Part shown: positions 2,294 through 40,014 of the stretch, one piece after another
Layout: every line of letters starts with the position of its first letter
How positions within the stretch are numbered: the first letter of the stretch is position 1
IMG/VR virus record: IMGVR_UViG_3300031227_000098
Coordinates: 1 to 45,291 of that record
Source: a virus
Reading direction: 5' to 3' (one strand)
Length of the DNA stretch: 45,291 bases
The notes under the pieces: model-generated
Databases searched by the model: none
The model's input: the letters and a program-made list of their open reading frames with translations, nothing else
Told to the model about the DNA's origin: nothing
Made by a program: the position numbers and the translations under genes

Positions 2294-4261
2294 TTATCCT
2301 TTCTTATATCTTGGGGCTACGAAACCTTCGGCTACAATAGGGCAACCTCTGCCCCATTCGGGTATTTCGCACATCAAGGCTATCATTTCCCCTATTTTTC
2401 GCTCTCCAAGGGGCCTCTCAGACACGATCTCGTCGTGAGTGTGCATCAGGACTGGGAATCCGGCTCTTTCCAACCTGGGCATGCTGTAGGCCATTATATC
2501 ACGTGCGACCGCTTGAGTGAAATTCTCGACCAATAAGCCCCCATATGTGTCTCTCCGGACCCATTGTGTATTAACTTCAGTCCGAAATGACATGCCCATA
2601 TTCCCAAATTTATTCTCTATTATCTCCGGGCCTATATAGGTGAGGGTCCTCCCAGAAGGAAGGCGGCAATACATAGCGTTATTTTCTTTTCGGTATACCC
2701 ATGAGACATATCTCAGAGTCATAATAGATCCGGGAGTGTGGAACGCATTTAACATTGTGCGCTCCATGTCATACCAAAAATTTCTGACTGCATAATAAGT
2801 AGTGCGATATAAGTCTATGATCCTTTCGGCTTCCGATTCAGAGACGTCTATACCATACCCCGCACACGTAGCCTTAAACTTAACGGATCCCATTCCGTAT
2901 CCACACCCAAGAATAGCCTGTTTTCCCAACTGTCTTTCGTTAGGATTATTTTTCTTAGTTAAAGAAGTATCACCATATATTCTCCGGGCCATCTTGACAT
3001 AGATATCCTCATCGGTTCCCCTGTCCGTTGCCCCGAATTCTTTAAGCCCCTGTTCTTCACCAGCAAGCCACATCACGACCCGGGCTTCTATAGCGCCGTA
3101 GTCTACGACATATAGTTCTTTGCCCGCCGCCGGCACAAACATTCCACGAATACATGCGGATAAAACATCCATAATTTTACCCGGGTATAGCATTTCAATG
3201 GCTGGGTATCCAAAGGTATCAATGTTCGTTATGGCTTTATCAGTATCAATTTTACCTTTAGGTAGATTTTGTAACTGAACAAGTTTACCACCCCACCGGC
3301 CGGTAGACGCGGCGTGATAGACGAAGTTGTCCCGCAACACGTTTTTATTGTCTACCGCTGCCACCAACTTTTTATACTTTGCCAAAGACGATTTACCCAA
3401 CTGTTGCCTGAGTCGGAGAATTCCAAGGTGCTTATTTTTAAGCACCCCACGGTTGATGGCCTGTGTGACAGTCCCTTTTGTAAGGTCAGGGAGGTCTGCC
3501 CCTTCTTCTTTAAGGAATTTAAGCATCGATTGTACTTGTGTTCCTTTTGTGACTTTTCCATTTGTAACTGTAACGAGTTCTTTATTGAGTGAATTAGTCT
3601 TATGTTCCAAGATGGATATGAATTTTTTAACTGTTGGCATGTCCACGTGCAGTCCCCGGGAGTTGATAAGTTGGTCGTAAAACCAAATTTCCTGCTCTTT
3701 TTCAGAAAGGTCCGGGAGTGCGTCATCAAGCTCTCGCTCGACTCGAACGTCTTGTTTACAATATTCATACAATAATTTAAGATGCTCGGGATCCTCATCA
3801 TAAATAATATCACCTTTTTTATTTGGAAGTGGTTTGGCCATTCTCAACATTATCTGACGGCCAACCTTGTCTTTACGATTCACTATCCCTAAAGCATCTG
3901 CCGCTTTCTCCAGGGCTTTAGGTAGCCCGTATGCACAGGCTTTTGCCTGGGTACACCGCCATCTTTTTAAGGGTATTGGCTCCCAGCCATGTCGCTTAAC
4001 CATTATGTTAGCCCAAATAGAGCGCTCAAAGAAGGCGCTGTGTGCTACAAAAATAACACTTGGATCGTGGACTAATATTTCCAAGGCGGTCGCACGCTTA
4101 GACATGGAGAGGTCATCTTCCGGCTTTAGCACTACCGGTTGATCGTCCATAGCGTAAGCAATACAGTGGATATGGGTACTGGGGTGCGCGGAATAAATCC
4201 ACGCACCCGATTCCCAAATATCCACATCTGATCTGGACTCGAAATCGATGTGGACTCTCAT
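2294..4261 (-). CDS. DNA polymerase, family A, with 3'-5' exonuclease domain
   Basis: A 655-aa replicative polymerase, close in size to T7 gp5 (704 aa). The N-terminal exonuclease shows Exo I DFES (residues 6-9), an Exo II-like stretch AHSAFFE (near 77; the usual Asn is Ser) and Exo III YCKQD. The polymerase domain shows motif A DYGAIEARVV (near 390), motif B RQLGKQAILGCGYG (near 445; Lys and Tyr present) and motif C HTHDE (near 610). No 5'-3' nuclease domain is present, as in phage enzymes. It is in one leftward operon with SSB, nuclease, helicase and primase. The modified Exo II site could weaken proofreading, but many phage enzymes vary here. Confidence 0.96.
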   Translation of the reverse strand: MRVHIDFESRSDVDIWESGAWIYSAHPSTHIHCIAYAMDDQPVVLKPEDDLSMSKRATALEILVHDPSVIFVAHSAFFERSIWANIMVKRHGWEPIPLKRWRCTQAKACAYGLPKALEKAADALGIVNRKDKVGRQIMLRMAKPLPNKKGDIIYDEDPEHLKLLYEYCKQDVRVERELDDALPDLSEKEQEIWFYDQLINSRGLHVDMPTVKKFISILEHKTNSLNKELVTVTNGKVTKGTQVQSMLKFLKEEGADLPDLTKGTVTQAINRGVLKNKHLGILRLRQQLGKSSLAKYKKLVAAVDNKNVLRDNFVYHAASTGRWGGKLVQLQNLPKGKIDTDKAITNIDTFGYPAIEMLYPGKIMDVLSACIRGMFVPAAGKELYVVDYGAIEARVVMWLAGEEQGLKEFGATDRGTDEDIYVKMARRIYGDTSLTKKNNPNERQLGKQAILGCGYGMGSVKFKATCAGYGIDVSESEAERIIDLYRTTYYAVRNFWYDMERTMLNAFHTPGSIMTLRYVSWVYRKENNAMYCRLPSGRTLTYIGPEIIENKFGNMGMSFRTEVNTQWVRRDTYGGLLVENFTQAVARDIMAYSMPRLERAGFPVLMHTHDEIVSERPLGERKIGEMIALMCEIPEWGRGCPIVAEGFVAPRYKKG

Positions 4262-4263
4262 AC

Positions 4264-4902
4264 TTATACCCCCGCGAACGGATCTGATGCAAACTTTGCT
4301 TTCTGCACCGGAGGTGTGGCCACCGGTGTTGCAGTGCTTGGCATCGCATCTTGTTGGACTTCGCCCTCATCTGGTATATCTAGGTCGCCGAACGCGTCAT
4401 CAACCTTAGTTCCAGCAGCGGAGAACGAAGTGTTTTCTCCGGTTTTCATAACGTGCTGAACGCCAACACTCACACTTTTCTTGGCTCCAAACTTATAGCC
4501 AAATACATCAATGTAAGCCAGGACGTTGCAGCCGGCATAAATCTCAGACGGCTCAATAGGTTGTTTATTCCTATTGACCACGCAAGGCTTACCGAAATCC
4601 GTCTTACGACTTACGTTTAAGACGAAGTGCCCAGCATACTCAGAACGATAGGTTTTGAATGCACCCACATCGTCCCCGTCCCTAAAGTTAGAAAAATGGG
4701 ACATAGCCTCTGCAAGATGCGCTTTACCAGCTATCGCGATGGCTTCTGTAGTGACAGCCTCTTTCAACCAACGCGCAAATTCCATGACTTTAGGGTCTGA
4801 TTTCGGAAACAGTATGGATAAAGAATATTTATTATACTGATCCGGCTTACTTAAATTTGGAAATGATGCTCTTCCTATTGGTGTTACTTTTGACATACTC
4901 AT
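4264..4902 (-). CDS. Single-stranded DNA-binding protein, Enc34/DUF2815 type
   Basis: The 212-aa sequence resembles the DUF2815 (Enc34 ssDNA-binding) family. It opens with a conserved GRASFPNL...NKYSLSILFPK strand pair, has a central FGKP...IYAGCNVLAYIDVFGY core (an OB-type fold in the family), then a low-complexity acidic and Pro/Ala-rich tail. The tail ends DPFAGV, a hydrophobic tip like the partner-recruiting ends of other SSBs. The last 21 coding bases differ by one base from the end of the unrelated gene ending at 18805. The start at 4902 follows AAGGAG by six bases. Upstream lie four 11-bp tandem repeats. Two bases separate it from the polymerase gene. Confidence 0.87.
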   Translation of the reverse strand: MSMSKVTPIGRASFPNLSKPDQYNKYSLSILFPKSDPKVMEFARWLKEAVTTEAIAIAGKAHLAEAMSHFSNFRDGDDVGAFKTYRSEYAGHFVLNVSRKTDFGKPCVVNRNKQPIEPSEIYAGCNVLAYIDVFGYKFGAKKSVSVGVQHVMKTGENTSFSAAGTKVDDAFGDLDIPDEGEVQQDAMPSTATPVATPPVQKAKFASDPFAGV

Positions 4903-11105: not shown

Positions 11106-11300
11106 TTAATTTTCTCTGTATACCCCGGCTACAATTTTTGCTGCAAGATTACGCGCGGCCCGGCGAGCCTTAGCTTTAGTACCATAGGTCTCACTGTGCG
11201 CCAGGATGTTACCGTTGTTATACTCTATACGCCAAAACCATTTTCCGTTTGTATGCTGTAACAATCTTACAATATGATACTGTTTCAATACTTTTCTCAT
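11106..11300 (-). CDS. DUF1508/YegP-like small protein
   Basis: The 64-aa protein has the YegP-type pattern: KWFWRIEYNNGNILAHSETY followed by GTKAKARRAARNLAA, meaning a strand pair around an Asn-Gly turn and then a helix starting after a short loop. Members are small proteins of unknown role. I chose the ATG at 11300, with AAAGGA upstream; a longer frame to 11330 adds residues that overlap the next gene and has no site. Confidence 0.68.
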   Translation of the reverse strand: MRKVLKQYHIVRLLQHTNGKWFWRIEYNNGNILAHSETYGTKAKARRAARNLAAKIVAGVYREN

Positions 11301-11314
11301 AATGATCCTTTCTA

Positions 11315-11620
11315 TTAAAATGGTGAGCATAACTCCATAGACTTAAGAAAATTGTCTAATGGTTTTGCCCACACGTTACCATTAGCTCCTTGATATACCA
11401 CAGTCACAGGATATTTGGGATTTAGATTTTCAGTATTCGCCAAGTGGGTTACTCTATAACTTATCCCGTTACGGTGTCTCCACTCACTCCCTATTTCTGG
11501 CGCCAACAACGCCTTCTCCACATCCTTGCGGTCTACCGATATTTCAGCGTATACTGTCGTATCTACATTTCCTGTAGTTTGTGACACTAACTTACCCGTC
11601 AATCTTATCTCGTTTGTCAT
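11315..11620 (-). CDS. Hypothetical protein with DUF1653-like C-terminus
   Basis: A 101-aa protein. The second half, GSEWRHRNGISYRVTHLAN then YPVTVVYQGANGNVWAKPLDNFL, follows the DUF1653-type pattern (strand with Arg-His, V-V-Y, then W-x-K/R-P-L-x-x-F). The first half, KLVSQTTGNVDTTVYAEISVDRKDVE, is a different short domain. The start at 11620 follows GGGAGG. The function of such domains in phage is unknown. Confidence 0.7.
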   Translation of the reverse strand: MTNEIRLTGKLVSQTTGNVDTTVYAEISVDRKDVEKALLAPEIGSEWRHRNGISYRVTHLANTENLNPKYPVTVVYQGANGNVWAKPLDNFLKSMELCSPF

Positions 11621-11651
11621 ACGTCCTCCCATTGTCGCTTACCTTACATTT

Positions 11652-11750
11652 TTAGTATAAAACCCAAACACTACTGAGAATAAGATGAATCAGCGTTAGG
11701 ATTGCTCCAGATAATATAAGCGTAAAAGCTATTCTTACTATTGTGTACAT
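11652..11750 (-). CDS. 32-aa single-helix membrane mini-protein
   Basis: A short frame with a strong site (AAGGAGG, four bases before ATG) encodes 32 residues starting MYTIVRIAFTLILSGAILTL, almost entirely one hydrophobic helix, with one Arg near the front. There is no other gene between 11633 and 11759. It is probably a membrane peptide of the kind phages use to affect the host membrane; the target is unknown. Confidence 0.6.
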   Translation of the reverse strand: MYTIVRIAFTLILSGAILTLIHLILSSVWVLY

Positions 11751-11759
11751 CGTGCCTCC

Positions 11760-12032
11760 TTACCGCAGATTAGGTTGGTCATTTGGATTCCCCTCATATT
11801 CACACCCCATTAAATTATCATGCAACATCATACAGAAGTTGGCTACGTCAGCACATTCGCCAATAATGGCAACTTTGTCCTTAGTTGCTATGGCTCGTTC
11901 TAATTCTTTTGTTTCTTGCCTTATGCGATTCAATATCCACTTGGGCGACAAACTTCCCCAACCTGTCTTGTGGGAATTTTTGATTAGCTTTTCTTCCATT
12001 ACGATAGCAAATTCCATTACTGGTATGCTCAT
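11760..12032 (-). CDS. MazG-like nucleotide pyrophosphohydrolase
   Basis: The 90-aa protein carries the MazG-type metal site: an RQETKELERA helix and GECADVANFCMML, matching the E-x-x-E ... E-x-x-D pattern of all-alpha NTP pyrophosphatases. It is at the short end for the family but similar to phage dATP/dCTP-hydrolysing forms. It could cleanse nucleotide pools or lower host alarmone levels. GGAGAGGG precedes the ATG by a few bases. It overlaps the coiled-coil gene upstream by four bases. Confidence 0.75.
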   Translation of the reverse strand: MSIPVMEFAIVMEEKLIKNSHKTGWGSLSPKWILNRIRQETKELERAIATKDKVAIIGECADVANFCMMLHDNLMGCEYEGNPNDQPNLR

Positions 12033-12586
12033 ACCCTCTCCTGTGCGTCATAGATTGCTTTGGCAACTTCATCATCTATCGTATATGCAGTAAGATTAAC
12101 CTTTCCTTCGTTCCTCTCAAATATCTTACGCTTAGTGTCAAAGATAATATTGAGTATACTATCAACACTCAACTTCCCTCGCTCGGCTTCGAGGTCTCTA
12201 TTCTTGGCTCGCAAACGAACATTCTCTTGCTCTAATTCAATGATTTGGGAATACCTAACACCCTCAACACTAGAGAAGTATTTAGCCTTAAAGGATTCCA
12301 ACTCCTTAATCTTAGCTTCTGCTTTCCTTAGCTTCTGTTTCAACCCTGCATAGACAGAGGCACATTTGTCAATGGCTTGATTCCAACCACTGTCCACACA
12401 ACCCTTGCAATCAAAGTCGCAAGTATGGTCGTGTCCATTCTTCTCTGGCATCTTCCCCTTCCACTTCATCACATCTTCGGCGAAGGAGAGTAGAGTTTTG
12501 TACGCTTCTTGTAGAGGTGGTGTATGCTGGGTAGGATATAATCTAAGGTCTGGTTCTACGTATTTTATCGCTTCCTCGATTTTCAT
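12029..12586 (-). CDS. Coiled-coil hypothetical protein
   Basis: A 185-aa protein with an N-terminal helical part, a Cys/His patch (HDHTCDFDCKGCVDSGW, about residues 52-68) that could bind zinc, and a long coiled coil (about residues 75-140, e.g. LRKAEAKIKELESFKAKY and ELEQENVRLRAKNRDLEAER). No family is recognised. Four-base overlaps with both neighbours show operon translation. It could be a scaffold for host-directed interactions. Confidence 0.72.
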   Translation of the reverse strand: MKIEEAIKYVEPDLRLYPTQHTPPLQEAYKTLLSFAEDVMKWKGKMPEKNGHDHTCDFDCKGCVDSGWNQAIDKCASVYAGLKQKLRKAEAKIKELESFKAKYFSSVEGVRYSQIIELEQENVRLRAKNRDLEAERGKLSVDSILNIIFDTKRKIFERNEGKVNLTAYTIDDEVAKAIYDAQERV

Positions 12587-12798
12587 ATTTCCCCCAATCC
12601 TAATGACTTGCGGATTTCGGCTTTTGTGAAATTGGATATTTTAATAATGCACTTTTCGCAATTAACTGTTCTTTCAACTAATTCATCTTCCCCTATCCTC
12701 TCCGCAATAGCTTCCTTGATGGCGGTTATGGCTGTTTTAGGTTCTCCCACGTTGTCATATAATATCTCCCTTAACCTCTCATCAAACGTCTGGCTCAT
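12583..12798 (-). CDS. Small hypothetical protein (71 aa)
   Basis: A mostly helical acidic protein starting MSQTFDERLREILYD, with an isolated CEKC pair (residues 47-50) that might bind metal. It is overlapped by four bases at each end by its neighbours. It is unrecognised; its main support is the open frame and its fit in the operon. Confidence 0.66.
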   Translation of the reverse strand: MSQTFDERLREILYDNVGEPKTAITAIKEAIAERIGEDELVERTVNCEKCIIKISNFTKAEIRKSLGLGEI

Positions 12799-13211
12799 TC
12801 GGAGTCTCCATCCTCAAGCGGTAACAACTTGTTTTCGAGTAGGTAAATACGCATCTTGGAAAGAGCGTTACAAAGGATTAAATCACCAAACTCATATTTT
12901 ACCCTCATATCTGAATAACAGTATTCTACACACCAAGTTCCGTTCTTCATTTTCACAATGTACAAAGAAGTATTTCCTATGCGACTCGGCAACGCTTCCA
13001 TTGACTCAGCAACGGTGAAGGCGGAGTAAATACATTCATTACGATGAAATGTTGTTCCGTCTTTTTGAGATACATACCAATTATCCTGTGTTAGTTTTGC
13101 GCTTGAACAATAACAATTACACCAATACCACAAACTCTCTTGTGAACATTTTAATTCCTTCAACCTCTGGCTTAACTCTAAATTACTTACTTGTTTCTCA
13201 AGCGGTAACAT
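12795..13211 (-). CDS. Cys-rich hypothetical phage protein (138 aa)
   Basis: The protein starts MLPLEKQVSNLELSQRLKELK. A Cys/Trp-rich region (CSQESLWYWCNCYCSS) and a mixed alpha-beta body follow, ending with EFGDLILCNALSKMRIYLLENKLL, which resembles the ending of a widespread but uncharacterised small phage protein. A start helix followed by a substrate-like beta region is visible. Function unknown. Confidence 0.7.
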   Translation of the reverse strand: MLPLEKQVSNLELSQRLKELKCSQESLWYWCNCYCSSAKLTQDNWYVSQKDGTTFHRNECIYSAFTVAESMEALPSRIGNTSLYIVKMKNGTWCVEYCYSDMRVKYEFGDLILCNALSKMRIYLLENKLLPLEDGDSE

Positions 13212-13214
13212 TGG

Positions 13215-13370
13215 TTATCTCCCTGTTCCAATCTCAAAAGCCCAATCTTTAACAATCACAACCAAGAGAACCCAAAACAGGGGTGTTCCCCAAGTCTTGA
13301 ACAAAGCTACTGCCATTATGGGAACAGTCAACACAAGCAGTAGGTTAATTTTCATCTCCCATTCTTTCAT
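13215..13370 (-). CDS. Small membrane protein (51 aa)
   Basis: The chosen start at 13370 follows GGAGAGGGGAG. It encodes a short charged N-terminus (MKEWEMK) and two closely spaced hydrophobic stretches (INLLLVLTVPIMAVALF and TPLFWVLLVVIVKDWAF). A longer frame to 13403 lacks a site. It is a membrane protein of unknown role, next to other membrane mini-proteins. Confidence 0.58.
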   Translation of the reverse strand: MKEWEMKINLLLVLTVPIMAVALFKTWGTPLFWVLLVVIVKDWAFEIGTGR

Positions 13371-13403
13371 CTCCCCTCTCCTTTCTTTACAGCGTAAGGT
13401 CAT

Positions 13404-13528
13404 CGGCAGTTGGTCTGCAACTTTCTCTTAGATGGTGTAGAAATACGTCTACACGAATATGGCCGAAGCCCCCAACTTTATAGGCTGGGGCAAAATCAGG
13501 ACTACCACGTCCACGACAACCCTACGCT
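13404..13528 (-). other. Gene-free stretch with several short hairpins
   Basis: No convincing frame is present. Visible inverted repeats are GTGTAGA/TCTACAC (13435-13441 with 13448-13454) and a GCCCC/GGGGC pair around 13470-13495. On the leftward strand there is also a GGC-TTCG-GCC tetraloop hairpin. They would sit in the 5' leader of the 13215-13370 gene or the 3' region of the 13529-13654 gene. Whether they act as RNA processing sites or attenuators cannot be told. Confidence 0.4.
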
Positions 13529-13654
13529 TTACTTTTTCTTACACCCCTGAATAGCGAGATAAATCAGTCCCGTTATCATTGCGGCTATCCCAATTATCAA
13601 AGCTGAACTTGCTGAAATCGACATCACAAGTGCGAACCACCATAACATTTCCAT
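13529..13654 (-). CDS. 41-aa membrane mini-protein
   Basis: An ATG at 13654 with GGAGTTAATT just upstream encodes 41 residues beginning MEMLWWFALVMSISASSALI. It is one long hydrophobic stretch (residues 3-35) and a basic end, CKKK. The Trp pair at the interface and the Lys cluster suggest an inner-membrane helix with the C-terminus in the cytoplasm. Unknown function. Confidence 0.6.
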   Translation of the reverse strand: MEMLWWFALVMSISASSALIIGIAAMITGLIYLAIQGCKKK

Positions 13655-13679
13655 AATTAACTCCTTAATTTTGGGTTAA

Positions 13680-13751
13680 AGCTGGCGAGAGGATTCGAAC
13701 CCCCGACCCGCTGTTTACAAAACAGCCGCTCTACCACTGAGCTACACCAGC
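13680..13751 (-). tRNA. tRNA-Thr (UGU)
   Basis: The full cloverleaf is readable on the leftward strand. The 7-bp acceptor is GCTGGTG/CGCCAGC, the D arm GCTC/GAGC, the anticodon stem GCTGT/ACAGC with loop TTTGTAA (anticodon TGT), a 5-base variable loop, and a T arm with TTCGAAT. The discriminator base is T and CCA is not encoded. It reads ACA codons. Thr codons, many of them ACA, are abundant in the collagen-like repeats of this genome, which may explain carriage. Confidence 0.96.
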
Positions 13752-13763
13752 ATTGTCAAAGAC

Positions 13764-13845
13764 GGCTCGCTCACTCGCGGAAAAGAAATACCAGAGCTGA
13801 GCTACTCAGGTTAGTTAGTACCCACGCCAACAAGTGAGCAGAGCC
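13764..13845 (-). ncRNA. 82-nt stem structure beside the tRNA (unidentified RNA?)
   Basis: GGCTC plus GCTCACT (13764-13775) pairs with AGTGAGC, one bulged A, then GAGCC (13833-13845), giving a 12-bp stem. The enclosed 57 bases hold a second hairpin, CTGAG-CTA-CTCAG. It starts 12 bases from the tRNA and is not coding. A D-arm-like GAGTAGCTCAG is present but no T arm, so it is not a functional tRNA. It could be a structured RNA or a decayed tRNA. Confidence 0.4.
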
Positions 13846-13899
13846 TATCAACTTACATGCAATCTACCCTTAGACTTATAATACTCCAATATATCTTTT

Positions 13900-14388
13900 T
13901 CATTTCACCCCTAACTGTTTAATGCGTAATTTTTTTGCAATCGCGCTGACATCAAGCCCGGATCCCGGGCACGTGTTGCTATGTCGTTCAATAACGGTGG
14001 TCTTAAGTTTTGTAAGGAGTTTTTTGAGTGATGTTATCTGTGCCGGCGTAAAATCGTCTCTGCCGGTTAATGCGACCCCCACTTTTCCGTTCCGGCTGCC
14101 TCTTGCATGCGCGCCTCGCATACTCAGTGGACGGCCTTCTTCTATATTACCGTCCGCGCGTATGACAAAATGGTAACCAATGCCCCACCAATATTGCATC
14201 TTTCCATTTGCGTCCACCCAAGTCCGCTCTTTGTGTTCTTCATGGATTTTTATTGCGGACTTGTCTGAACTGTCGGTGTGATGAATGATTGCATGCGTGG
14301 TATCGACATTAGCATATAAAACAGCGGGGATTGAAAACCCAACTAAAAAATATAATGCAGCGTAACAAAACATAAAAAGGAATCGCAT
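13900..14388 (-). CDS. Endolysin: N-acetylmuramoyl-L-alanine amidase, PGRP/amidase_2 type, with N-terminal export signal
   Basis: A 162-aa peptidoglycan amidase of the T7-lysozyme/PGRP fold: AIIHHTDSS (zinc His36), WGIGYHFVIRADGNIEEGRP, GSRNGKVGVALTG, and the second zinc pair ERHSNTCPG (His136, Cys140; the connecting loop is shorter than usual). Unlike T7 lysozyme it starts with a hydrophobic segment (residues 3-26) after a single Arg, so it is probably exported by Sec or held as a signal-anchor endolysin. The start is set by CCGGAGG. It has its own promoter at 14472-14500 and lies far from the holin/spanin genes. Confidence 0.9.
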   Translation of the reverse strand: MRFLFMFCYAALYFLVGFSIPAVLYANVDTTHAIIHHTDSSDKSAIKIHEEHKERTWVDANGKMQYWWGIGYHFVIRADGNIEEGRPLSMRGAHARGSRNGKVGVALTGRDDFTPAQITSLKKLLTKLKTTVIERHSNTCPGSGLDVSAIAKKLRIKQLGVK

Positions 14389-14471
14389 ATTATACCTCCG
14401 GCCTATTGATTATTAGATTTTGCGAGCTTATTGGGATAGTATTCGATAACTGGTCTAATGTCATAAAAGAG

Positions 14472-14500
14472 ATACTATCGTAAAAAAGTCTGCTTGTCAA
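14472..14500 (-). promoter_or_regulatory. Sigma70-type promoter for the endolysin gene
   Basis: The leftward strand reads TTGACA (14495-14500), a 17-base spacer, then TAGTAT (14472-14477). It overlaps the stop of the 55-aa gene and lies about 85 bases before the endolysin start, in the only sizeable gap nearby. It would allow separate expression of the endolysin and the genes that follow. Confidence 0.65.
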
Positions 14501-14664
14501 TGGTTTATTTTATTGGCTATGCGTCTTATATTTTTATATATCTGGTAAAGCTGCGCCTTCGCCATGCGCTTAAATTTCCCAGCGTCTCCCGGATACCGCT
14601 GTGTCAGGGATTGCACCAACTGCCATTTATATTTTGGTATCCAGTAATCGTTTGTCTTATACAT
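14497..14664 (-). CDS. Small basic hypothetical protein (55 aa)
   Basis: The ATG at 14664 lies just after the stop of the upstream gene, whose last codons (GCAGAAGGG) supply the ribosome site. The product starts MYKTNDYWIPKYKWQLVQSL, contains RYPGDAGKFKRMAKAQLYQIYKNIR, and is strongly basic. The PGD...K...M...QLYxIY pattern recalls a short phage protein family of unknown function. The frame is clean and ends at a TGA inside the endolysin promoter. Confidence 0.66.
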   Translation of the reverse strand: MYKTNDYWIPKYKWQLVQSLTQRYPGDAGKFKRMAKAQLYQIYKNIRRIANKINH

Positions 14665-14667
14665 GTT

Positions 14668-14853
14668 TTACCCTTCTGCCTTGTCATAGTTCCCGATCAA
14701 CGGTATGAGAGGGCAATTTTTGTAATGTTTTACAGACATTGGATCCGCGCCCGCGCCGCCGCAAAAATTACAGATACTTATAAAAATATCCTCTTCGGGT
14801 TCAATAGCCGTAGAAGATTGCATTAGAATATTTTTCATTTCTCTCTTTTCCAT
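14668..14853 (-). CDS. Small zinc-ribbon-like protein (61 aa)
   Basis: The protein has a CNFCGGAGADPMSVKHYKNC segment (residues 28-47). Its Cys-x2-Cys, His and Cys could form one zinc site. The N-terminus is charged (MEKREMKNILMQSS). GGAAGGTG precedes the ATG by five bases. It is translationally coupled to the 55-aa gene. Unknown role; small zinc proteins in phage early regions often bind host proteins. Confidence 0.62.
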   Translation of the reverse strand: MEKREMKNILMQSSTAIEPEEDIFISICNFCGGAGADPMSVKHYKNCPLIPLIGNYDKAEG

Positions 14854-14899
14854 GTTACACCTTCCTTTCTGTTTTTTGGCCTATATTCAGGTATCCCCG

Positions 14900-14924
14900 C
14901 GCCGGAGATTGTCGCTCTCCGGCG
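14900..14924. other. GC-rich hairpin between genes
   Basis: A perfect 9-bp stem, CGCCGGAGA/TCTCCGGCG, with a 7-base loop lies between the 88-aa and 61-aa genes. It has no following T-run on either strand, so it is more likely an RNA processing or stability element, or a weak attenuator, than a rho-independent terminator. Confidence 0.5.
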
Positions 14925-14950
14925 AAGTGAGGGCTTAAGTTTTCGGCAAT

Positions 14951-15217
14951 TTAGTTCAAATTAACGAGTTTATAGATTCCTTGGTCTATTTTTTTCTGTG
15001 TCTCTTTCTTTTTCTCTCCGAGAAATCGGTTGCGATAACGTCCTGTCGTAACTGAATAATCCCAATAATCTTTGTCTAATTCTATAACCCCATCCGTACG
15101 GATAACGGCGATTATAGAATCATAACTTTGAAAATACTGCCCGCCCTCACTATCAGTTATGATAAACTGATTCACTACCCCACCTCCCGCGTTCCCTATC
15201 ATATTTTTTACTTTCAT
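14951..15217 (-). CDS. Hypothetical early phage protein (88 aa)
   Basis: The protein starts MKVKNMIGNAGGGVVNQFII and follows a pattern I associate with a small phage family: an N-terminal strand, 'NQF', a Ser-Tyr-Asp-Ser (QSYDSIIAVI) segment, then WDYSVTTGRYRNRFLGE and a Lys/Glu-rich helix. The middle 'SYxSxIA' and 'TTxxYRxxFL' parts look conserved. No enzymatic motif. Its MKVKNMI start recurs within the 72-aa protein at 16675-16893 (KVKNMI). Confidence 0.7.
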   Translation of the reverse strand: MKVKNMIGNAGGGVVNQFIITDSEGGQYFQSYDSIIAVIRTDGVIELDKDYWDYSVTTGRYRNRFLGEKKKETQKKIDQGIYKLVNLN

Positions 15218-15250
15218 GGTATACCTTTCTTTCTGCCCGTGTGTAATGGG

Positions 15251-15352
15251 CTAATCCCTATAATCGGGACATTTCGTTATTATGATCTGTGCTTCCTCCG
15301 CCTTGACGAAATCAGGGCATTCAGGGCGGTTTTTACACGTTTTGCAGAGCAT
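15251..15352 (-). CDS. 33-aa four-cysteine mini-protein
   Basis: An AGGAGG site five bases before the ATG at 15352 starts a 33-residue frame beginning MLCKTCKNRPECPDFVKAEE, with a fourth Cys near the end (TKCPDYRD). CxxC...C...C spacing suggests a tiny zinc knuckle. It overlaps the end of the 45-aa gene by 20 bases, and its ribosome site lies inside that gene. Confidence 0.55.
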   Translation of the reverse strand: MLCKTCKNRPECPDFVKAEEAQIIITKCPDYRD

Positions 15353-15470
15353 TGGCCTCCTTTCCGTATTTCCTATACGCCTCTTTGAGGATTCTGATGG
15401 CACTCGCGTAATCGTGGGCGATCCCCGCCCTTCTATAAAGGGCTATTATTCTTCGCCGTTCGCGATACAT
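15333..15470 (-). CDS. 45-aa basic helical mini-protein
   Basis: The frame from an ATG at 15470, inside the 3' end of the 139-aa gene, gives MYRERRRIIALYRRAGIAHD, then YASAIRILKEAYRKYG. It is a regular amphipathic, basic double helix with convincing amino-acid composition. The ribosome site is weak (AAGCGGGA), so it probably depends on translation of the upstream gene. Unrecognised. Confidence 0.5.
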   Translation of the reverse strand: MYRERRRIIALYRRAGIAHDYASAIRILKEAYRKYGKEANALQNV

Positions 15471-15865
15471 TCCCGCTTGAGGCCATCGCAGACGTTCCAT
15501 AATACAGGATAATTGTTTTCGCGTTCATACAGATAATACTCGGCGCTGTCGTATTTCTTAGGCAACCAGCCCGCGTGAAATATAAGAGTTAGGGCGGTTT
15601 GCTTATACTGTTCCCCGTAACCATATTGAAACTCCCCATGTAAAACTTTGGTATCTGCGCACCTTGTCACCTTGACGGAATGATAAGTGTTGCCGTTTAC
15701 CTTGTCAAACCACCTTACCGTATCACATACAAACTTTATTTCCCTTAAAGGTTTTTTTTTGCATTCATTACAAATTACAGTGCCGAACACATCCGCACCG
15801 TTTGTCGCTGTGTCCTCTACACCTGCAATCGCTTCCGCCAATGCTTTAAAATGTTTCTTTGTCAT
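15446..15865 (-). CDS. Conserved-looking hypothetical protein (139 aa)
   Basis: It starts MTKKHFKALAEAIAG, a leader helix seen in small host-takeover-type phage proteins. There is a Cys pair (ICNECKKKPL) and then a beta-rich body with VNGNTYHSVKVTR, YGYGEQYKQTALTLIFHAGWLP. The last part looks like a fold that other phages and enterobacterial elements share, but the role is unknown. AGGAGGGG precedes the ATG as part of the repeated leader motif. Confidence 0.72.
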   Translation of the reverse strand: MTKKHFKALAEAIAGVEDTATNGADVFGTVICNECKKKPLREIKFVCDTVRWFDKVNGNTYHSVKVTRCADTKVLHGEFQYGYGEQYKQTALTLIFHAGWLPKKYDSAEYYLYERENNYPVLWNVCDGLKRECIANGEE

Positions 15866-15868
15866 CTC

Positions 15869-15890
15869 AACCCCTCCTACTTTCTGCCGC
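15869..15890 (-). repeat. Leader repeat, copy 1
   Basis: Leftward strand reads GCGGCAGAAAGTAGGAGGGG and then TT, directly before the ATG of the 139-aa gene. It shares the core CGGC(A/G)GAAAGTAG(G/A)AGGGGTT with copies at 16636-16658 and 16894-16914 and contains the Shine-Dalgarno. Confidence 0.7.
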
Positions 15891-15902
15891 GCTTGGCGGC
15901 GG

Positions 15903-16019
15903 TTAATCGTTAATAATATCGTCCAAAAAAACGGACGTAATGGGCTTATTGCAAATTGCCCCCGCCCGGCGATATCCGCGCGTCATCATTTTAATTATGT
16001 CACTTAATGCTTTAATCAT
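15903..16019 (-). CDS. 38-aa hypothetical mini-protein
   Basis: The ATG at 16019 follows GAGGGG by eight bases and encodes MIKALSDIIKMMTRGYRRAG, then AICNKPITSVFLDDIIND. The start overlaps the stop of an unstarted upstream frame as ATGA. A helix, a basic patch and an acidic end can be seen, but no family. Composition looks like coding, but support is modest. Confidence 0.42.
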   Translation of the reverse strand: MIKALSDIIKMMTRGYRRAGAICNKPITSVFLDDIIND

Positions 16020-16116
16020 ACGCCTGACCCCTCTTTTCCTTGGGGCTTTCTGGCCTCATCAGCGTTGGCAATCACCAACGGACGCGCGCGGGTCTCAATC
16101 CGTGCGCGTTTCGGCC

Positions 16117-16635
16117 TCAGTCAAGCATGAAAGGCAGTATTACCGCGCACGTGTTATCGTGCTCCAGAACCACGCTTGAACCCTTTTTATATGCTACAAC
16201 AGTCCAGCCGCCATTGTATGAGGCAAGGTGTCTTAGATATTTTATGTTATACGCGTTTCCGGTCTCTTTATATAACCGAATTGCCGCGCGTGTTAGTGTT
16301 ACATCATCCTTGTCTATTACAATACTTGTTTGTTCTTTCTGAGGCAAACGCTCCACGCTTGAATAAATAGCCTCAAAACCCGGCGTTATGACGTCCGGCG
16401 CTGCTAACATGGACAATCTTACACCACCCGCGCCGAGTTTTTCGGTCTTTAATACCTCATAAGCCCCGTCGGATAGTGTAATATCATCCATGGCAATACG
16501 TAGCGCAACCCGGCCATCCGTAGTATATAAATTGCGTTTAAGCATAAAGACATGTTTAAAGGCGTCTTTTGGCGCTTTTTTTGTTATTGCGTCAATTGCT
16601 TTTTTGTCCGTCTCTAATAGCATTATATTTTTCAT
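16117..16635 (-). CDS. Putative sliding-clamp-like protein (DnaN fold, tentative)
   Basis: This 172-aa protein has several marks of the beta clamp: LYTTDGRVALRI (compare the 'ATDGHRLA' strand), GFEAIYSSVERLPQ (compare 'FPdyxxLIP'), NIKYLRHLAS (compare 'N.xYLxDxL') and a C-terminal SSVVLEHDNTCAVILPFMLD (compare '...yvvMPmrl'). It is about half the length of a bacterial clamp, so two domains at most; it would need to assemble as a higher oligomer to form a ring. The family call rests on my reading of these motifs and is not certain. It lies in the early region, away from the polymerase gene. Confidence 0.55.
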   Translation of the reverse strand: MKNIMLLETDKKAIDAITKKAPKDAFKHVFMLKRNLYTTDGRVALRIAMDDITLSDGAYEVLKTEKLGAGGVRLSMLAAPDVITPGFEAIYSSVERLPQKEQTSIVIDKDDVTLTRAAIRLYKETGNAYNIKYLRHLASYNGGWTVVAYKKGSSVVLEHDNTCAVILPFMLD

Positions 16636-16658
16636 AACCCCTCCTACTTTCTGCCGGT
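16636..16658 (-). repeat. Leader repeat, copy 2
   Basis: Leftward strand reads CCGGCAGAAAGTAGGAGGGG and then TT before the ATG of the clamp-like gene. It is non-coding here and carries the Shine-Dalgarno. Confidence 0.7.
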
Positions 16659-16674
16659 ATTATCGGCTGTTAGT

Positions 16675-16893
16675 CTATAATCCCATATCCATTTTTGCTT
16701 GCCTTGCCGATGTACCGCATAACTCGCTCAATATTTCATTACGTGTTCGTTTAATCCTGTTATCTATTGATTTTTTGCGCAAGTCCTTGTATCTTTCTGG
16801 CTGTCCTTTTTCTGTTACTACTTCCGATGTTGAAGATATAATTATTGCTCTTTCTCCGTTAATCATGTTTTTTACTTTTCTATACTTTTCCAT
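16675..16893 (-). CDS. Small basic hypothetical protein (72 aa)
   Basis: The protein starts MEKYRKVKNMINGERAIIIS, has a short strand (EVVTEKG) and a basic helical half (DLRKKSIDNRIKRTRNEIL). GAAGGGG in the repeated leader precedes the ATG. There is no recognised domain. The KVKNMI string is shared with the start of the 88-aa protein at 14951-15217, which may mean a common leader or ancestry. Confidence 0.62.
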   Translation of the reverse strand: MEKYRKVKNMINGERAIIISSTSEVVTEKGQPERYKDLRKKSIDNRIKRTRNEILSELCGTSARQAKMDMGL

Positions 16894-16914
16894 AACCCCT
16901 TCTACTTTCCGCCG
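16894..16914 (-). repeat. Leader repeat, copy 3 (overlaps a gene end)
   Basis: Leftward strand reads CGGCGGAAAGTAGAAGGGG and then TT before the ATG of the 72-aa gene. Here its first part also encodes the last residues (GGK) and stop of the upstream gene. Confidence 0.65.
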
Positions 16915-17168
16915 ATATTATCGACTGCTGTTATTGCTTTTAAAAATGCGGGCGCTTCGCAGTCCTCTTCGAGGTAGCAAGCAAGGTCTCCGCGAAACCC
17001 GCATTTTACTAATTTATATGCGATATTGTAGTTTTTGTCGTTTTTAGGAATGCACAAATAACCGTGTCCGGCAGTGTAAATAAAATTATATCCTTCCTTG
17101 TCGGGCTGCATATCCTGGATTTCATCCCAGGGTTTAAGTTGTTGGAGCTCTTTCTGGTACGCATTCAT
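16902..17168 (-). CDS. Hypothetical early phage protein (88 aa)
   Basis: The first gene of the leftward unit. After a Lys/Gln helix (MNAYQKELQQLKPWDEIQ) comes the stretch GYNFIYTAGHGYLCIPKN, then AYKLVKCGFRGDLACYLEED, typical of a small phage protein of unknown role with a 'GHGYLxIP' strand and an acidic end. I prefer the ATG at 17168 (AAAGGG upstream). A GTG at 17222 with GCGGGAG would add 18 residues. It lies about 130 bases from the leftward promoter. Confidence 0.7.
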   Translation of the reverse strand: MNAYQKELQQLKPWDEIQDMQPDKEGYNFIYTAGHGYLCIPKNDKNYNIAYKLVKCGFRGDLACYLEEDCEAPAFLKAITAVDNIGGK

Positions 17169-17277
17169 GTTTTTTTCCCTTTCTTTTTGTGCGGCTTTTA
17201 TTTTTTTGTTTTCTGTAAGCACTGCTCCCGCTTCCCTTCTCCCTTGTGAGGTTTTGTTGTTTTGTTGTTTAAATGTC

Positions 17278-17944: not shown

Positions 17945-17973
17945 TTGACAAAAGAATACTTAAGGCGTATATT
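17945..17973 (+). promoter_or_regulatory. Rightward promoter for the packaging/virion arm
   Basis: TTGACA (17945-17950), 17-base spacer, TATATT (17968-17973). It has the same two hexamers and spacing as the promoter before the capsid gene. It lies at the front of the rightward arm. Confidence 0.75.
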
Positions 17974-18067
17974 GTTATATATTAATATGACGTTGGATAT
18001 TTCTCAATTTAAAAGCAATCCGCCCCCGCGTAAAAGAGGGAGGGCTGCCAAACGAAGAGGAGGGAGC

Positions 18068-18805
18068 ATGAGTCAAATGAGAACTGGTGGAAGAGGAGCC
18101 GGACTTTCGTCGGCGGCTAAGGATTTGCAGGACTATCCGTTTTTGGTTAAGACGTTGGTGACGTTTACCAAAGCGAATACTTTAGGCAAAGAGGAAATGC
18201 TTAAGGATGAAGTAATTTTTAAGTTAGACAGGGCGGCTGCCCGGATGCCCTGGTACGTTCTCCGGAACTATTCAGTTCCAAAATTTCTTACCAAGAAGTA
18301 CGGACCCCATGAAGTAGCGTGGCAGAGGATTTACGAAATCAAAATTGTGAAACTCATTGATAGAAAGAACCCCAATGAGATCACGGACATCCCTTTAAGA
18401 ATAATGACCCTATCTCAGTTGAAAGAGTATTCAAAAAAATGGGAACTTAATGTTCCTGTAGATGAATTCTATTCCGTTGAGAAGGCGCGGGAGATGGTTG
18501 CGTTAAGACAACACGATTTAAAAGGGTATGAGACACACTTGGCGGAGTATCGTGAAGGGAAGCAGAGATCATATCCGGAACTCGATAACATGCGCGGCGA
18601 TAAAGACGCGGCAACGGCGGAAATAATAGAGTTTGATTCGTTGGATAAAACCACTGAGAAGGATGCGATTGCGAAGAAACCGGAACCAGCGACGGAAACG
18701 GAGCCTAGTGCGCCGGAAGCGATGGCGTTAGATGAGGACGGGGGCACAATACTACCCAAAGTGGATGACGTGCCTACAACCGGGGATCCGTTCGCAGGGG
18801 TATAA
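18068..18805 (+). CDS. Hypothetical protein with SSB-like C-terminal tip (245 aa)
   Basis: First gene of the rightward arm. A Gly/Arg-rich start (MSQMRTGGRGAGLSS) leads into an alpha/beta body (RMPWYVLRNYSVPKFLTKKYGPHEVAWQ...), then an acidic, Pro/Ala-rich tail ending TTGDPFAGV. The last 21 coding bases differ by one base from the end of the ssb gene. I set the start at 18068 after AGGAGGG. An ATG at 17987 would add 27 basic residues (NPPPRKRGRAAKRRGG), but it has no ribosome site and lies almost on the promoter. No family is recognised; DNA binding or packaging support is a guess. The stop overlaps the next ATG. Confidence 0.78.
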   Translation: MSQMRTGGRGAGLSSAAKDLQDYPFLVKTLVTFTKANTLGKEEMLKDEVIFKLDRAAARMPWYVLRNYSVPKFLTKKYGPHEVAWQRIYEIKIVKLIDRKNPNEITDIPLRIMTLSQLKEYSKKWELNVPVDEFYSVEKAREMVALRQHDLKGYETHLAEYREGKQRSYPELDNMRGDKDAATAEIIEFDSLDKTTEKDAIAKKPEPATETEPSAPEAMALDEDGGTILPKVDDVPTTGDPFAGV

Positions 18806-26206: not shown

Positions 26207-27127
26207 ATGGGAAGCGATAAAAGATATGATCTGACTTTTAAGAAAACGTCGGAGCTTTCGGCTGGGGATGGCGCAGCGGTTGCTGGAGATAAATTTGTTT
26301 TGATTGATATATCTGATGCTGAGAATCCGGTAACCCGGACTATTCAAGATATTATCGATCTTTGTGCTGGTGCCGGGGCAACAGGCGCAACAGGCGCAAC
26401 AGGCGCAACAGGCGCAACGGGCGCAACCGGGGCAACGGGTGCGACAGGAGACACTGGGGCTGCGGGCGCAACCGGCGCAACAGGCGCTCAGGGAACAGCT
26501 GGAGCAACTGGGGCAACAGGACTAGCCGGGGCAACAGGCGCTCAAGGTACTGCTGGCGCAACAGGCGCGCAAGGTACTGCTGGAGCAACAGGCGCACAAG
26601 GTACTGCTGGAGCAACAGGCGCACAAGGTACTGCTGGAGCAACAGGCGCTCAAGGTACTGCTGGCGCAACAGGCGCACAAGGTACTGCTGGAGCAACAGG
26701 CGCTCAGGGAACAGCCGGGGCAACTGGAGCACAAGGTACTGCTGGAGCAACTGGAGCGGCAGGTACAGCCCAGGGTGTTCAGGTAGAAGTTTCACTAGCC
26801 GAGTTAAATGCTGGTAAAACTCTTGTTGCTGGTGTAGAAGCGCAAAACATTATAGTTATTGATTTCAATGTAGTTTGCGACGGGTCTTTTGGAACTTTGA
26901 CGTCTGCTGAATTGGAAGATACTAGTGGCACAATAAATGTTTGCTCTATTGCACAGGCTCAAATGATTGATAACGCGGTATTAACGAAAGAGTCCACAGG
27001 GGTTACTCTTGGGGTCGGTGTAGCGGAAAAACTCACAACCGGTGAATCTTTGGTTATTACACACACCGGTCCTGATGCTGACACAGCTACAAAACTAACA
27101 GTATCACTGACATACGTACAGAGTTAG
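26207..27127 (+). CDS. Collagen-like virion fibre/decoration protein
   Basis: A 306-aa protein in three parts. Residues 1-52 are an anchor-like domain ([20 protein letters not shown]...DKFVLIDI) of the kind that starts many phage fibres. From about 54 to 188 it is Gly-X-Y: simple GAT triplets and nine GAQGTAGAT-type units. The last 115 residues are a beta-rich knob ([19 protein letters not shown]...). Placed right after the capsid terminator and before the tail tube genes, it may decorate heads rather than tails. The repeat DNA is nearly identical to that of the gene at 38626-40014. Confidence 0.82.
26537..26752 (+). repeat. Eight tandem 27-bp collagen-coding repeats
   Basis: Eight contiguous 27-bp units encode GAQGTAGAT; a ninth lies just upstream, separated by other triplets. 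Synonymous differences (GCT/GCA/GCG, GGT ACT/GGA ACA) follow patterns that recur in the array at 38725-39642, including a stretch of over 50 bases shared exactly. Confidence 0.9.
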
Positions 27128-38625: not shown

Positions 38626-40014
38626 ATGGGTTATGAAAAGGGTGGGTATAGAGGTGACGGGGGTGGTACCGGTCCGACTGGCGCGACTGGCGCAACGGGT
38701 ACAACGGGCACGACGGGAGCAACAGGCGCTCAGGGAACGGCAGGTGCAACAGGTGCTCAGGGAACGGCAGGAGCAACAGGTGCTCAGGGAACCGCCGGAG
38801 TAACTGGCGCTCAGGGAACAGCTGGCGCAACAGGCGCCCAGGGCACTGCTGGCGCAACTGGAGCACAAGGTACTGCTGGAGCAACTGGCGCGCAGGGTAC
38901 TGCTGGAGCAACTGGCGCTCAGGGAACAGCCGGGGCAACTGGAGCACAAGGTACTGCTGGAGCAACTGGAGCACAAGGTACTGCTGGAGCAACAGGCGCT
39001 CAAGGTACTGCTGGAGCAACTGGAGCACAAGGTACTGCTGGAGCAACAGGCGCTCAAGGTACTGCTGGAGCAACTGGCGCACAAGGTACTGCTGGAGCAA
39101 CAGGAGCACAAGGTACTGCTGGCGCAACTGGAGCACAAGGTACTGCTGGCGCAACAGGCGCTCAGGGAACAGCTGGCGCAACAGGCGCGCAGGGTACTGC
39201 TGGAGCAACAGGCGCTCAGGGAACAGCCGGGGCAACTGGAGCACAAGGTACTGCTGGAGCAACAGGCGCTCAAGGTACTGCTGGAGCAACAGGCGCGCAG
39301 GGTACTGCTGGAGCAACAGGCGCTCAGGGAACAGCTGGAGCAACAGGCGCTCAAGGTACTGCTGGAGCAACAGGCGCTCAAGGTACTGCTGGAGCAACAG
39401 GCGCTCAGGGAACTGCTGGAGCAACTGGCGCGCAGGGTACTGCTGGAGCAACTGGCGCACAAGGTACTGCTGGAGCAACAGGAGCACAAGGTACTGCTGG
39501 CGCAACAGGCGCTCAGGGAACAGCTGGAGCAACAGGCGCTCAAGGTACTGCTGGCGCAACAGGCGCGCAGGGTACTGCTGGAGCAACAGGCGCTCAGGGA
39601 ACAGCCGGGGCAACTGGAGCACAAGGTACTGCTGGAGCAACAGGAGCAACGGGTCCTGGAAATGCTAGTATAGAAATAATAATAGGGGACGGATCGAATG
39701 TTATATCTACGGGTATCCAGGGGGATATTGAAATAGGATACGCCTGTACCATAACTGGTGTTACTCTATTATCTACTTTAAGTGGAAGTATTGTGGTTGA
39801 TATTTGGAAGGATTCGTATGCAAATTTTCCACCGGATAATGCGGATACAATTACTTCGTCAACACCGCCGACTATAACTACGGCAACAAAATCACAAGAC
39901 ACTACGCTTACGAGTTGGACAAAGGCAATTACTGCCGGTGATATTTTACGATTTAATGTAGACAGTGTTACAACCTGTACGAAAGTAGTATTGTCTTTGG
40001 TTGTTGCAATATAA
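38626..40014 (+). CDS. Collagen-like fibre with 34 nine-residue repeats
   Basis: A 462-aa protein. A short start ([16 protein letters not shown]) leads to 33 residues with Gly-X-Y triplets, then exactly 34 copies of GAQGTAGAT (one with V for A), a GATGPG break and a 117-aa knob ([20 protein letters not shown]...). Over 100 continuous triplets would make a rod of roughly 90 nm if fully triple-helical (at about 0.29 nm per residue). The knob resembles that of the fibre at 37098-38171 ([29 protein letters not shown]). There is no attachment domain of the T7 type, so it must bind through a partner. AGGAGG precedes the ATG. Confidence 0.9.
38725..39642 (+). repeat. 34-copy 27-bp tandem repeat array
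   Basis: Contiguous 27-bp units within the fibre gene. Units differ only by synonymous changes and form higher-order blocks; for example a series of four to five units around 39150-39260 recurs nearly unchanged around 39505-39640. There are no spacers, so it is not a CRISPR. Copy number is likely to vary between isolates. Confidence 0.95.

Follow-up and report, generated by a model that had tools for sequence, protein, structure and literature searches.

A fast-evolving early phage protein with probable distant kinship to half-length DnaN-like phage proteins

Phage relatives of the bacterial sliding clamp DnaN at about half its length are already known, by annotation. When E. coli DnaN was searched against phages, many phage proteins of 172-224 aa matched only its central domain and part of domain III; aligned to DnaN, this half-length family covers about residues 125-250 and 315-366, giving an architecture of the central domain followed by the last half of domain III. 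A scan of IMG/VR returned at least 481 related half-length stretches. The half-length clamps match PF02767 and TIGR00663 weakly and are grouped as PHROG phrog_3007. One member, gp7 of Sodalis phage SO-1, is exactly 172 aa long; its depositors described it as a putative DNA polymerase III beta subunit that may be the product of a moron gene. No functional study of half-length phage clamps was found in the literature searched. The label 'RusA-like Holliday junction resolvase' is carried by phrog_3007, phrog_12598, ORF2 of NC_006953, NC_031924 and NC_054644; on phrog_3007 it looks like a propagated error, the members being DnaN-derived half-length clamps as judged by PF02767 and TIGR00663. Half-length clamp genes often lie one to a few genes from a gene for a ParB-like or other DNA-binding protein, in phages that are otherwise different (L035, L036, L038, L041).

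The regions of DnaN that are covered include the clamp peptide pocket, and at its positions (residue list taken from PMC11139829) the half-length family shows 79% identity to E. coli DnaN, compared with 23% elsewhere (Mann-Whitney p 5e-8). This conserved pocket suggests that the family as a whole may bind host clamp partners. According to the review from which the list was taken, beta as a monomer has an about 50-fold tighter hold on the loader subunit delta than the dimeric form but is unable to tether Pol III (PMC11139829). Clamps beside a family A polymerase have also been described: the Aquificae virus TOSV carries a phage PolA together with an annotated DnaN sliding clamp (PMC7689252).

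The window analyzed here is a virus record of 45,291 bases from an uncultured, podovirus-type phage. It encodes a portal protein (PF12236), an Amidase_2 protein (PF01510), a family A polymerase and an Enc34-type SSB (PF10991), as well as a DUF2800 nuclease-like protein, an SNF2 helicase and a Prim-Pol/VapE primase-helicase. The ORF of interest (referred to as the target) is read from the minus strand, and the plus strand is full of stops over the same interval (Table 1). A sequence-only reading had described a protein of about half the normal clamp length with TDGRVAL, YSSVERLP, NIKYL and a terminal motif in clamp order. All four are present in that order, at residues 39-45, 91-98, 130-134 and, for VVLEHDNTCAVILPF, 155-169, and the protein has 47% of the length of E. 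coli DnaN (172/366 aa).

Table 1. Positions in the window of the target gene, its segments and related features
Feature	Position	Strand	Remarks
Target gene, 172 aa, candidate short clamp-like protein	16117..16635	-	Single homologue L022:3263-3844
AGGAGG Shine-Dalgarno	16640..16645	-	4 nt ahead of ATG
Residues 1-48, beta-alpha-beta-beta-beta half	16492..16635	-	Aligned to N half of DnaN central domain; TTDG = 38-41
VERLP (94-98)	16342..16356	-	Aligned to FPDxxRVIP linker motif of half-length clamps; FPD part unconserved
Residues 99-126, strand and helix absent from half-length clamps compared	16258..16341	-	Predicted strand 103-107, helix 111-125
Residues 127-172, NIKYL helix and three strands ending VILPFMLD	16120..16257	-	Aligned to C-terminal half of DnaN domain III; 30% over 50 aa to L111
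Variable early gene block containing target	11106..17222	-	0 tblastn matches in three closest sister phages G001-G003
Family A DNA polymerase of phage	2294..4261	-	

Compared with the half-length phage clamps (SO-1 gp7, Shigella phage EP23, Skatevirus BS5, Serratia phage Eta, Vibrio 1.098.O; phrog_3007), the target is alike in length, in end-to-end similarity and in the common order of an N half of the central domain followed by a C half of domain III. It differs from them in lacking RYYLNG, FPD and MPMR, the last replaced by ILPFML, and in the additional strand-helix segment. With bacterial DnaN it would share the predicted half-domain fold and the landmarks TDG, NxxY and xPx in the pocket region. 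Unlike this three-domain protein of about 366 aa that forms a dimeric ring, the target is half as long and has no HMM match, and as it lacks a counterpart of DnaN domain I, a canonical dimeric six-domain ring is not expected.

Direct searches gave little. The Pfam scan returned no matches to the target, PADLOC and the PDB sequences nothing notable, and NCBIfam and PHROGs weak matches only, none of them linked to clamps; PF02768 had no matches in the phage genome. A PHROG tape-measure match (E 0.003) was judged to be due to chance. Tblastn against phages and plasmids produced noise, in which one weak alignment fell on the end of a phage DSL-LC05 DNA polymerase, and the cultured relatives of the terminase and polymerase have no recognisable homologue of the target. 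Seed-pattern searches of viral and genome collections yielded one relative and nothing further. This sole detectable homologue, P0012, is a protein of 193 aa encoded on the minus strand of the sister phage G002 (record 3300035547_000097), upstream of the terminase as is the target, and the two share about 26% identity across 116 aa (E 0.007, or 5e-6 when only the two sequences are compared, and 2.9e-4 against P0012's genome).

The gene is missing in the closer sisters G001 and G003, whose terminase is 82-83%, polymerase 70% and primase 75-80% identical to those of the phage. Replication genes are kept at roughly 50-80% identity among the sisters, and the target diverges far faster than the core, with about 26% identity to its G002 counterpart versus roughly 50-62% for the G002 core. 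None of the three sisters gave a tblastn match to any gene at 11.1-17.2 kb; the G002 homologue of the target is too distant for tblastn to detect. With core genes conserved and this block unmatched, we class the target as an accessory early gene that evolves fast.

Whether the resemblance to half-length clamps appears to exceed chance depends on the test: it does not by local profile-profile comparison, and it does by end-to-end alignment. Hmmsearch of the target against the half-length family gave an insignificant 1.9 bits, hhalign against the clamps gave insignificant E-values of 0.01-0.7, and in the hhalign decoy set the target ranked 25 of about 585. The sequence-only reading would have been refuted by the lack of a clamp hit in profile searches, and taken literally this is the outcome of the HMM and HHalign searches. 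By contrast, in end-to-end alignment with 39 non-redundant half-length clamps the mean score of the target lay 5.4 SD above that of its own shuffles (0/300) and was the first of 146 phage proteins of similar length. Pairwise Z-scores averaged 2.18 (maximum 5.28) against the clamps and 0.21 (maximum 2.40) against 145 unrelated proteins. Four of five gap settings, in which end gaps are penalised, agree, placing the target first of 262; across the tests with penalised end gaps Z lay between 4.4 and 5.4, and under an end-free scheme most of the signal was lost. With 15 further clamps from a later scan, Z was 5.3 (0/300 shuffles, first of 262), a repeat that is not fully independent since the seed alignment of that scan contained the target. 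The best local matches with clamps run start to start (residues 4-67) and end to end (126-169). Identity of the target to the half-length clamps is only about 9-21%.

Since the ORF was chosen for its look among roughly 70 ORFs, its own score has to be discounted. The score of P0012 is free of this selection, though the two proteins are related: P0012 reached Z 2.7 (2/300 shuffles, rank 4) in the 39-clamp test and again Z 2.7 with the 15 further clamps, a signal weaker than that of the target, at about 2-4 SD across tests. An end-to-end test of the target against the family profile was also weaker (Z 2.8, 7/400, first of 146), and the joint end-to-end test of the target and P0012 gave 16/1000. 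The alignment of TDG, R96, Y133 and P168 was dropped as stand-alone evidence, because the count of matches at conserved columns cannot separate the target (9/28) from decoys, 41 of 145 of which equal it.

The same data bear on the possibility that the target is an unrelated small alpha/beta protein for early host takeover or anti-defence whose clamp likeness arose by convergence or chance. Such an origin would agree with the absence of any significant match by a local profile method, with the selection of the ORF by eye, with the richness in orphan genes of the early variable region in which it lies, and with its eroded pocket residues. We nevertheless regard it as unlikely, in view of an end-to-end score that ranks first of 262 real proteins and was repeated on further family members, and of the sister-phage homologue, which also falls within the top few. 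Taken together, a clamp-fold relationship of the target is probable. It appears to be a divergent variant that strict sequence tests do not place in the half-length family. The clamp likeness proposed by the sequence-only reading is thereby moderately supported as a distant relation, reached through the half-length phage clamps more than through full-length DnaN or PCNA, and it stands beside profile searches that remained insignificant.

Structure prediction was in line with this assignment. A single-sequence AlphaFold2 model of the target was uninformative (pLDDT 34, pTM 0.24), and Foldseek found no PDB match to it at E below 0.001. Supplying P0012 and 20 half-length clamps as alignment raised pLDDT to 73.8 and pTM to 0.66; the 50 best PDB matches of this model in Foldseek all come from DnaN, alone or in complex (top E 3.7e-7, query TM about 0.5), and in BFVD it matched phage clamps. 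Because the clamp alignment steers the model, this uncontrolled result is biased and counts only as consistent with a clamp fold. Segment 99-126, which is without a counterpart in the aligned clamps, was also modelled as strand and helix with fair confidence.

Relative to the E. coli DnaN positions, the pocket of the target has 7 of 16 residues identical and 11 similar. The equivalents of T172, G174, R246, N320, Y323, V360 and P363 are kept, and R152 is changed to K, H175 to R, R176 to V, P242 to S and R365 to M. Retention of pocket residues is in itself weak evidence, as aligners favour conserved columns. Judged from these residues, the pocket appears partly eroded; with key positions replaced, canonical QLxLF binding is doubtful, and the ligand may differ from the canonical one. 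Given a clamp fold, we still consider partner binding by the target to be somewhat favoured. The degraded pocket within a similar fold, along with the extra segment 99-126 unseen in the half-length clamps compared, could instead point to a clamp-fold protein recruited to a new job, for example one in which a different surface than the peptide pocket contacts a phage or host protein; as no partner or specific function is indicated, this seems distinctly unlikely.

The sequence-only reading had also raised a working clamp beside the family A polymerase, a pairing it considered noteworthy and which TOSV had already provided (PMC7689252). TOSV resembles the present phage in having a family A polymerase and a clamp-like gene and no obvious clamp loader; in TOSV-type viruses the gene is an annotated DnaN sliding clamp, and here it is short, accessory and beyond profile detection. 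From sequence, a working sliding clamp is unlikely here, because the protein is too short for a six-domain ring, is not kept with the polymerase (sister phages without the gene have PolA, SSB and primase about 70% identical), and because no Q-phi-x-[LM]-[FL] clamp-binding motif was found in the phage PolA and none of the scanned early proteins was recognisable as a clamp loader. To act as a true processivity clamp for this polymerase, the target would have to close a ring as a higher oligomer. Its end-to-end similarity to clamps and the existence of phages with PolA and a DnaN-like clamp speak for such a role; we consider it highly improbable, given those same observations on sisters, motif and loader and a divergence much faster than that of the supposed partner polymerase.

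We therefore favour, with a probability of roughly 0.4, the reading that the target is a diverged half-length DnaN relative acting as a decoy or adaptor for host clamp partners. The protein would be a highly diverged relative of the phage half-length DnaN-like proteins, combining the N half of the DnaN central domain with the C half of domain III and an additional strand-helix segment, and it probably forms no ring around DNA. Its part, as an accessory protein of the early region, would be to bind host proteins that normally dock on the clamp, such as the clamp loader, polymerases and Hda-type regulators. Of this picture, the ORF, its end-to-end similarity and its accessory, rapidly diverging character are shown by the data; the fold, the lack of a ring, partner binding and any gain for the phage are inferred. 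As a decoy, it would disturb host replication or repair; as an adaptor, it would capture a host clamp partner for use by the phage. The decoy had been offered by the sequence-only reading as well, and we infer that it fits better than a working clamp.

A bolder version, which we put forward as speculative, would derive the target from the peptide-binding half of the host clamp, diverged past profile detection and sequestering host clamp partners in order to disable or redirect the replisome. If this were true, the half-length clamps visible today would represent the conserved portion of a broad and unstudied group of effectors that mimic the clamp. Hundreds of phages have half-length clamp relatives, often under the wrong name of Holliday junction resolvase. 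Conservation in these proteins is highest in the pocket at which host replication proteins dock, which suggests that phages may use mimicry of the clamp as a strategy. With the target, the half-length class would come to include sequences beyond the reach of profile searches, and a simple binding test becomes possible.

Several further features were observed in this phage and its sisters. The SSB (window 4264-4902, minus strand) and an unrelated 286-aa protein near the terminase (17945-18805, plus strand) both end in DPFAGV, which by sequence resembles an SSB-type tail common to the two; in G003 and G002, the homologues of the 286-aa protein end in DPFAGI and DPFQDV, respectively. The large terminase of G002 (L022:5927-7888) contains about 120 inserted residues whose two ends are intein-like (CVDGDAKVMTE ... 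VHNC). In the structural region of the window, the proteins at 38626-40014 and 26207-27127 carry long collagen-like GATGAQGTA repeats.
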